The notes under the pieces: model-generated | Told to the model about the DNA's origin: nothing | Database searches by the model: none | Seen by the model: the letters and a program-made list of their open reading frames with translations, nothing else | Shown here: piece after piece, positions 56,758 to 58,656 of the stretch | Position numbering within the stretch: the stretch's first letter is position 1 | How the letters are laid out: each line of letters opens with the position of its first letter | Program-made: the position numbers and the translations under genes | Origin: Glutamicibacter sp. PS | GTDB taxonomy: Bacteria > Actinomycetota > Actinomycetes > Actinomycetales > Micrococcaceae | Length of the DNA stretch: 64,000 bases | Direction: 5' to 3' | Assembly (NCBI GenBank): GCA_031317595.1 | Contig: JANCMB010000001.1 | Span: forward strand, 930,001-994,000

Positions 56758-56763
56758 TATGCT
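56758..56763 (+). promoter_or_regulatory. Predicted -10 of the leuA leader
   Basis: TATGCT ends 6 nt before the GTG of the leucine-rich leader frame, so the transcript would start at that codon. No Shine-Dalgarno precedes it and no good -35 was seen. Confidence 0.45.
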
Positions 56764-56769
56764 TACCAC

Positions 56770-56826
56770 GTGCATTTGACGCTACTACTCCTACTTAGCC
56801 GCTGCGAGGATCCAACGGACCGTTAG
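56770..56826 (+). CDS. leuL: leuA leader peptide (leucine-rich)
   Basis: An 18-codon frame starting GTG and ending TAG encodes MHLTLLLLLSRCEDPTDR. Five consecutive leucine codons (CTA, CTA, CTC, CTA, CTT, 56782-56796) plus an earlier TTG are far above chance for so short a frame. CTA is rare in high-GC genes, which fits a stall-sensitive leader. It lies 84 bp before leuA, where actinobacteria often have such leaders. Ribosome stalling at low leucyl-tRNA would change folding of the segment from 56799 on. It probably starts leaderless (see -10 at 56758). Confidence 0.7.
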   Translation: MHLTLLLLLSRCEDPTDR

Positions 56827-56853
56827 TGGTTCCTGGCCAAGCCCTCGTTGCGG
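56799..56853 (+). promoter_or_regulatory. Attenuator-type pairing in the leuA leader
   Basis: CCGCTGCGAGG (56799-56809) can pair with CCTCGTTGCGG (56843-56853), with one internal mismatch and one wobble. The left arm lies just past the Leu codons, where a stalled ribosome would mask it. Further down, CCCC at 56870-56873 can pair with GGGG (56898-56901) of the leuA ribosome-binding site. No U-tailed terminator is visible, so control may be translational. Confidence 0.45.
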
Positions 56854-56910
56854 AGTAGTTCATATCTGGCCCCATTTCATCGTGATTTCTACGCCCCGGG
56901 GAGAGTAACC

Positions 56911-58656
56911 ATGCAGCACGTACAAAAACCTTCAAAAATGCCTATCCATAAGTACGTCCCGTTTCAGGACCAAATCCAGGTAAATCTGCCGGATCGCACC
57001 TGGCCGGACAAGTACATCACCAAGGCTCCGCGCTGGTGCGCCGTCGATCTGCGCGACGGCAATCAGGCACTGATCGACCCCATGAGCCCGGAACGTAAGC
57101 ACAAGATGTTCGACCTGTTGGTGCAGATGGGGTACAAGGAAATCGAAGTTGGATTCCCTTCCGCCTCGCAGACCGACTTCGACTTTGTGCGTCAGCTCAT
57201 CGAGCGGAACCGGATTCCGGACGATGTGACCATCCAGGTGCTCACCCAGTCCCGTGAGCACCTGATCGAGCGCACCTTCCAGGCGCTCGAAGGCGCCAAG
57301 CAGGCCATCGTGCACCTGTACAACTCGACCTCGATCCTGCAGCGTGAGGTGGTCTTCCGCCAGGATGAGGACGGCATCGTGGACATCGCCCTGCAGGGCG
57401 CCCGCTTGTGCAAGAAGTACGAAGAGCAGCTGACCGGCACGCGGATCACCTACGAGTACTCCCCGGAGTCCTTCACCGGTACCGAACTGGAATTCGCTAA
57501 GCGCATTTGCGACGAGGTTGCCGAGGTCTTGGAGGCCAGCGTCGAGCGTAAGGTGATCTTGAACCTGCCAGCCACCGTGGAAATGGCGACCCCGAACGTG
57601 TACGCCGATTCCATCGAGTGGATGCACCGGAATTTGGCGAATCGTGAATCGATCATCCTCTCGCTGCACCCACATAACGACCGTGGCACCGGTGTGGCCG
57701 CCGCGGAGCTGGGCTACCTGGCCGGCGCCGACCGTATCGAGGGTTGCCTGTTCGGCAACGGGGAGCGCACCGGTAACGTCGACCTGATCACGTTGGGGAT
57801 GAACCTCTTCGGGCAGGGGATCGACCCGGAGATCGACTTCTCCAATATGGACCACATCCGCCGCACGGTCGAATACTGCAACCAGTTGCCGGTACCGGAG
57901 CGTAGCCCCTACGGTGGCGACCTCGTCTTCACCGCGTTCTCCGGTTCGCACCAGGACGCCATCAAGAAGGGCCTGGAGGCCATGGAGGCCAAGGCCGCGG
58001 CTCAGGGCAAGGATATTAACGAGATCACCTGGGCGGTACCGTACCTGCCGGTTGACCCGAAGGATATTGGACGCAGCTACGAGGCCGTGATTCGCGTGAA
58101 TTCGCAGTCCGGCAAGGGCGGCGTGGCCTACCTGTTGAAGAACGACTACTCCTTGGATTTGCCCCGTCGTGCGCAGATTGAATTCTCCGGGGTCATTCAG
58201 CGCAAGACCGATTCCGAAGGCGGCGAGGTTTCCTCGGCCACCATTTGGAACGTTTTCCAGGATGAGTACCTGCCGTCGGCCGAGGGCTCGGAGATGGAAC
58301 CATGGGGCTACTACCGGATCGCCTCGGCCACCGCGGAGTCCAGCGAGGATGGCAGCTTCACGCTGCACACCAAGCTGCTCATCGACGGTGTGGCCCACGA
58401 GCGTTCCAGCACCGGCAACGGCCCAATTTCGGCGCTGGTGAAGCTGCTCAATGACGACGGCGTGGACCTGCGCGTGCTGGACTACACCGAGCATGCGCTC
58501 AGCGAAGGCGGCAACGCTCAGGCGGCCGCGTACGTCGAGTGCGCCGTAGGTGACCGCATTCTGTGGGGCGTCGGCTTGGACGCCAACACCACCTTGGCCT
58601 CGCTGAAGGCCGTCGTTTCGGCCGTGAACCGCGCGATTCGCGACGCCGCCGAATAA
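56911..58656 (+). CDS. leuA: 2-Isopropylmalate synthase
   Basis: A 581-residue enzyme catalysing the first leucine-specific step, acetyl-CoA plus 2-oxoisovalerate. The long LeuA2-type N-terminus leads to [22 protein letters not shown], with the metal-binding Asp and the catalytic Arg in [43 protein letters not shown] appears in consecutive parts (the HxH metal motif). The C-terminal leucine-sensing domain (about 440-581) is present. ATG 56911 follows GGGGAGAG at good spacing; upstream extension into the leader is not supported. Confidence 0.96.

Follow-up and report, generated by a model that had tools for sequence, protein, structure and literature searches.

The stretch of DNA analysed here (64,000 nt; hereafter the window) carries leuA, whose 581-aa product was identified as 2-isopropylmalate synthase (NCBIfam TIGR00970, E = 2.4e-256). 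leuA was found in 18 of the 18 genus members searched, including the source genome (3.4 Mb), and the top matches among the 80 named contigs that were kept belonged to Arthrobacter and other Micrococcaceae. A short leader frame, MHLTLLLLLSRCEDPTDR, starts with the GTG at 56770 and ends with the TAG at 56824-56826, which leaves 84 nt before the leuA ATG at 56911. The features of the locus are the following.

56758-56763, plus strand: −10-like hexamer TATGCT, ending 6 nt 5' of the leader GTG
56770-56826, plus strand: leader ORF of 18 codons with a GTG start, probably leaderless
56782-56796, plus strand: five Leu sensor codons, CTA CTA CTC CTA CTT
56799-56809, plus strand: 5' arm of the P1 helix, within the leader ORF (covariation)
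56835-56839, plus strand: 5' strand of the pseudoknot, GGCCA, in the P1 loop (covariation)
56843-56853, plus strand: 3' arm of the P1 helix (covariation)
56867-56871, plus strand: 3' strand of the pseudoknot, TGGCC (covariation)
56870-56873, plus strand: CCCC overlapping the pseudoknot 3' strand, able to pair with the GGGG of the Shine-Dalgarno (SD) region (duplex energy)
56898-56905, plus strand: SD region of leuA, GGGGAGAG, the predicted target of both anti-SD strands
56911-58656, plus strand: leuA, 2-isopropylmalate synthase, 581 aa (NCBIfam)

An earlier note on this DNA had described the 18-codon frame with five consecutive Leu codons, its end 84 nt before leuA and a TATGCT hexamer ending 6 nt before the GTG, and all of these are present as described. 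The pseudoknot and the pairing of the Leu codons with the SD region had been overlooked. No terminator-like site was detected in the window upstream of leuA (0; shuffles mean 0.2), in agreement with the proposed lack of a U-tailed terminator, and a sigma-70 promoter having both hexamers was likewise absent from the results of that scan (0; shuffles mean 0.2). No Rfam family, T-box included, gave a gathering match in the window; the sole match at E up to 5 was at chance level (8.9 bits; cut-off, 45) and was discarded. On the minus strand, a frame resembling FAD-binding monooxygenases (assigned by Pfam from the larger of its two pieces only) adjoins leuA at 55453-56724; it is interrupted by an in-frame stop and is probably a pseudogene.

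Three of the leader Leu codons are CTA (6% of the Leu codons in 41 long ORFs of the window), one is CTT (9%), and one is CTC (23%). The description of the run as mostly rare codons is therefore fair, although CTC is not among the rare ones. For comparison, 237 regions upstream of leuA were collected, consisting of 97 from a set of 99 loci (L020 and L057 were omitted) and 140 further ones. A rule combining the stem with Leu codons was passed by 230 of the 237, representing 219 distinct elements. When only the stem was searched for, with no Leu criterion, a strong stem was found in 222 of 228 distinct upstream regions. Three consecutive Leu codons occurred within the 24 nt before the stem in 192 of these 222 regions and were absent in 30, compared with 52 of 4683 other 24-nt windows as the background. 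In the Leu-run columns (entropies from 172 anchored rows of 183), codon positions 1 and 2 are almost invariant as C and T, respectively, and the third base is variable. On the basis of this comparison it is apparent that the Leu run is translated and is not conserved as RNA only. Of 195 elements, 145 have P1 starting 5 nt past the Leu run and all have it starting 2 to 6 nt past it, and the stop codon of the leader lies inside the P1 loop in 194 of them. Thus, a ribosome finishing the leader must open P1, and one stalled at the first sensor codons should leave it unopened.

An in-frame ATG or GTG was preceded by a TAnnnT hexamer at a distance of 6, 7 and 8 nt in 141, 47 and 7 of the 219 distinct leuA elements, respectively (195 in total), and all other spacings scanned (2 to 14 nt) gave 39 matches together. 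The remaining 24 elements have no hexamer at 5 to 8 nt; several of them, including f25 loci, have one further upstream. Five P1 calls among those 24 (L124, L150, L234, L016 and L104) were wrong by eye and were removed from later sets. The comparison thus lends support to the earlier proposal of a leaderless start, and transcription of the leader in the window probably begins at the start codon itself, as judged from this spacing. In Corynebacterium diphtheriae, according to the available text of PMC5784534, the leuA leader was weakly transcribed and no transcription start site could be assigned.

P1 of the window follows directly on the Leu run (56799-56809/56843-56853), as the note had placed its stem; of its 11 positions, one is a mismatch and the other 10 pair, including one as G-U. 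Covariation was examined in an alignment of 79 elements picked for short loops, with the window included (78 distinct rows). P1 was paired in 97.8% of cells, with changes on both sides in 7 of 11 pairs, and the pseudoknot in 80.2%, with changes on both sides in 6 of 6 pairs. None of 500 shuffles reached any of these measures, and slid helices dropped to 42-61%. RNAalifold, which is unable to draw pseudoknots, recovered P1 unaided (10 pairs). The pseudoknot strands also matched their own partners better than swapped ones (16.40 versus 15.23; sd 0.14, n = 214), although in this set, as in the SD-pairing and imposed-state sets below, the row of the window carried a wrong pseudoknot helix; the values given for the window itself and for its genus use the right one. 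The helix and the pseudoknot therefore covary. In four Rothia loci (L065, L067, L075 and L098), the pseudoknot strands appeared by eye to be longer and quite different in sequence, with pairing kept.

These features mark it as a LEU element (Seliverstov 2005, PMC1262725), for which the available text gives a leader ORF with a Leu run, a conserved pseudoknot, a stem covering the SD sequence before leuA and no obvious terminator. The window has a Leu-codon run with a pseudoknot downstream, in front of leuA of an actinobacterium, and P1 and the GGCCA/TGGCC pseudoknot presumably correspond to the helices of the 2005 figure.

The covering of the leuA ribosome-binding site was examined by duplex energies, with the family membership of named contigs in the pairing and folding comparisons set from genus names. 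Outside the family of the window (107 loci), the Leu run paired with its own SD at −11.25 kcal/mol compared with −10.41 for swapped partners (0 of 300 shuffles), which establishes cognate pairing there at the level of sequence comparison. Within the family (107 loci), the corresponding values were −6.58 and −6.84, so that cognate specificity has gone, and the pseudoknot 3' strand paired with the SD at −7.86 versus −7.51 when swapped (4 of 300 shuffles). Among the genus relatives (15 of 17; L008, which is identical, and L016, which was miscalled, were left out), the 3' strand was the better SD partner in 15 of 15 cases, with means of −9.47 and −4.87 for the 3' strand and the Leu run, respectively. 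For the window, the predicted Leu:SD duplex ranges from −10.4 to −11.3 kcal/mol depending on the stretch taken, and the 3' strand:SD duplex reaches −9.6. The base stem of the LEU element is thus predicted at −11.3 kcal/mol in the window, against the genus mean of −4.87 (n = 15) and a family that is not cognate-specific (n = 107), and the window appears to be an exception among its genus relatives that retains both pairing options. As to the earlier suggestion that CCCC masks the GGGG of the SD, the run at 56870-56873 can do so, but that at 56894-56897 directly adjoins the GGGG, so that no hairpin can join the two.

When ribosome positions were imposed in folding, the predicted unpaired probability of the SD in the window was 0.15 for the free RNA, 0.15 with the ribosome at the stop codon and 0.62 in the stalled state with P1 and the pseudoknot imposed. 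With the pseudoknot not imposed, the stall gave only 0.29 (first Leu codon) and 0.32 (third). The mean values for the imposed stall and the ribosome at the stop were 0.50 and 0.36 for the family (103 members), and 0.50 and 0.24 for 91 non-members; the stall raised SD accessibility in 69 members and 69 others and lowered it in 12 and 7, respectively. Folding of the imposed states thus predicts a switch in the expected direction, albeit a modest one. The Leu-sensing leader and the SD masking proposed in the note are supported by the comparison.

An element model (R1) built from 79 sequences, with the window among them, matched 284 of 296 genomes of the class, 85 of which had more than one match (hand count). 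In a draw from the phylum, 20 of 198 genomes matched, including three from other classes (G507, G523 and G602). The matches in G523 and G602 stand before leuA. That in G507 (L273) has no leader and is repetitive; it was judged a false positive and dropped, and L274, which has no P1, was also dropped. With E values up to 1 admitted, R1 returned from the source genome the leuA element and one false positive, nothing more; the latter (G000:C1:347530-347603, E = 0.42) falls within a coding sequence of ribosomal appearance, as judged by eye. A second model (R2), trained on leuB-type elements, returned nothing in this genome and missed the leuA element itself.

For other copies, 90 loci were chosen from the R1 and R2 matches and by hand, mostly second copies, so that the following counts are not frequencies. 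A readable leader was present in 88 of them, corresponding to 77 distinct elements, as some places were fetched twice. The downstream genes were named by sequence motif, and for LeuB, IlvE, LeuC and type I LeuA a single representative apiece was compared with Pfam and NCBIfam, with clear results. Among the 88 loci, 43 were of the leuB type (L289 by position only), and in 5 further ones with leuB-type leaders, leuB either was divergent or lay at a distance of 1.6-1.9 kb (L255 and L285, which are the same place, L291, L293 and L295). Thirty loci stood before leuA type II, 3 before leuA type I in genomes with only weak matches to the LeuA of the window, 4 before leuC, and 3 before a protein similar to the LeuA regulatory domain (of two tested, Pfam gave 2.4e-06 for one and a value below the cut-off for the other). 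The elements L278, L279 and L280, which are LEU-like and precede the protein resembling the LeuA regulatory domain, have an LVV or LLV sensor. In L245, L247, L248 and L249 (f4), LEU elements with a Leu run precede leuC-leuD, and these loci appear from their leader sequences to resemble Microbacteriaceae. The open-access literature searched yielded no description of LEU elements upstream of leuB or leuC.

The heptamers encoded before P1 differed with the downstream gene. In 132 distinct leuA heptamers, part of which came from a rule requiring Leu codons, Ile occurred in 17, Val in 23 and LL in 131, whereas in 22 distinct leuB-type heptamers Ile occurred in 22, Val in 21 and LL in 1 (Fisher's test, 2e-16 for Ile and 9e-13 for Val; relatedness is not corrected, and because some loci share a species or place and the species are related, these P values overstate independence). 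Examples of such Ile/Val/Leu mixes are VFVLIDC, VLVLITC, SVRILSC and HIFVLRC. The leuC heptamers had LLL in 4 of 4. It is clear from these comparisons that the sensor codons track the downstream gene. The pseudoknot is kept and covaries strongly in leuB-type elements (21.32 versus 16.83 when swapped; sd 0.47, 0 of 500, n = 37). On the other hand, the pairing of their sensor codons with the SD of the first ORF after the element was not specific (143 of 500 shuffles were as good), and the elements sit some 250-800 nt upstream of the leuB motif. SD masking therefore cannot be the whole story. The leuB-type elements are spread over families f2, f3, f14, f15, f23, f26 and f33, which indicates that the codon swap is old; it may have been one single event inherited by many. 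That one scaffold serves other amino acids argues for reading by the ribosome and against a fixed ligand or protein.

Between leuB-type elements and leuB, a short ORF of about 18-45 codons with an RDNGG-like motif near its end (..ALDRRDNGG..) was observed. With duplicates counted, 33 of 48 leuB-type loci have it after the element (among others L254, L262, L267, L276, L284, L288, L315, L317 and L326), and it remains with the element in L285 and L291, where leuB is divergent. No Pfam or NCBIfam model matched three examples of it.

We consider it probable (roughly 0.65) that the feature in the window is a LEU element in which ribosome stalling on the Leu codons governs the translation of leuA. 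Transcription of the leader ORF would begin at its start codon, and the ribosome reading it would stall at the first Leu codons when leucine is short, and thereby cover the codons able to pair with the leuA ribosome-binding site. The 5' arm of P1 would be left free, so that P1 and the pseudoknot could form and sequester the second anti-SD strand, and leuA would be translated. When leucine is plentiful, the ribosome would reach the stop codon in the P1 loop and open P1; the Leu codons and the pseudoknot 3' strand would then be free to cover the SD, and leuA expression would be low. Control would in this case be translational rather than also transcriptional.

Transcription attenuation without a U-tailed terminator, in which the ribosome position decides the release of RNA polymerase (e.g. 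by Rho) past the pseudoknot and SD pairing is secondary, would account for leuB-type elements that lie far from leuB and have no specific sensor:SD pairing with the first following ORF, and uORF control linked to Rho is described for mycobacteria in the available text of PMC12810186. It also draws on the short leuA leader RNAs of Mycobacterium tuberculosis, reported in the accessible part of PMC3526491 as bands of 85, 65 and 45 nt with a 13-residue leader containing three Leu codons. In four of five loci of f10, presumably the mycobacterial family, the distances from the GTG to the ends of P1 and of the pseudoknot are 64-65 and 83-87 nt, respectively (the fifth has no chosen start). These ends are close to the 85- and 65-nt bands, an agreement that also counts in favour of the ribosome-stalling reading, and would fit a 5' end at the start codon, with the 3' ends of the bands at the two structures, by termination or by trimming; the 45-nt band is unexplained. 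However, the short bands may be trimmed RNA, the window has no terminator-like site, and the specific Leu:SD pairing in 107 loci would be left unexplained. We therefore regard transcription attenuation as unlikely, though as the strongest competitor to ribosome-governed leuA translation.

The 2005 authors deemed classical ribosome attenuation unlikely and suggested that a protein containing a DEAD-box helicase domain binds the element (PMC1262725, available text), in which case the leader ORF would be incidental. The conserved pseudoknot is in keeping with such a site, as are the Streptomyces coelicolor leuA leader mutations cited there, whose effects were inconsistent with classical attenuation, and no later paper settling between ribosome and protein was found in the open-access literature. 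Nevertheless, a protein-binding site would explain neither the coding-type constraint on the Leu run nor the replacement of the Leu run at leuB by Ile/Val/Leu codons with the scaffold unchanged, and is highly improbable. It is scarcely credible that the leader has no regulatory role, as a spurious ORF of a GC-rich region or part of a longer frame from upstream: the frame is indeed open further upstream to a GTG that gives 29 codons, but the conservation across the class, the covariation and the −10 spacing all speak against it.

In addition to ribosome-governed translation of leuA, the evidence leans towards the LEU element being a modular amino-acid sensor throughout the class. One scaffold, comprising a mini-ORF with little or no leader, a P1 helix that overlaps it, the stop codon in the P1 loop and the pseudoknot, would have its sensor codons exchanged to suit the gene: Leu for leuA of both enzyme types and leuC, Ile/Val/Leu mixes for leuB-ilvE (IlvE serving all three amino acids), and Leu/Val for the protein resembling the LeuA regulatory domain. 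The core switch would be this scaffold rather than SD masking, and its output would have been rewired between clades, including the family of the window. The exchange of sensor codons with the downstream pathway is strong natural evidence of ribosome reading, and the codon-swapped copies permit a clean test of which amino acid controls the output. If this is true, leaderless mini-ORFs would be a general sensing module for leucine and branched-chain amino acid synthesis across the whole class, which would be useful for amino-acid-producing strains.

In classical attenuators of the trp/leu type, a leader peptide with regulatory codons is combined with alternative structures. The element of the window shares both, but differs in the absence of a U-tailed terminator at leuA (0 sites). 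Mycobacteria reportedly have attenuators formed by leaderless polycysteine uORFs, described by Canestrari in 2020; judged by the title of that work, these are alike in being leaderless ORFs whose sensor codons govern their own pathway, and unlike in their codons and genes. LeuL1 of Streptomyces lividans, as far as the available text of PMC8079986 goes, is similar in its leader, MRFGLLLLSCRGEGL, with an LLLLSCRGE motif, in being leaderless and in lacking a typical Rho-independent terminator, whereas its transcription start came from 5'-end RNA-seq and that of the window is deduced from comparison. The LEU element agrees with the window in its leader ORF, pseudoknot, predicted Leu-codon:SD pairing, lack of an obvious terminator and position upstream of leuA (PMC1262725, available text). 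The 15 genus relatives depart from that element in that their SD is predicted to pair weakly with the Leu codons and more strongly with the pseudoknot 3' strand; the window keeps both options. The note had considered the combination of leaderless initiation with a terminator-free translational switch to be new, but the LEU element and the leaderless LeuL1 predate it. The features described in the available text of the 2005 paper include neither the codon-swapped copies at leuB-ilvE nor the Leu copies at leuC. A LEU element with a leaderless-looking start is thus already known in kind, and the proposed scaffold with exchangeable sensor codons is the more general lesson.
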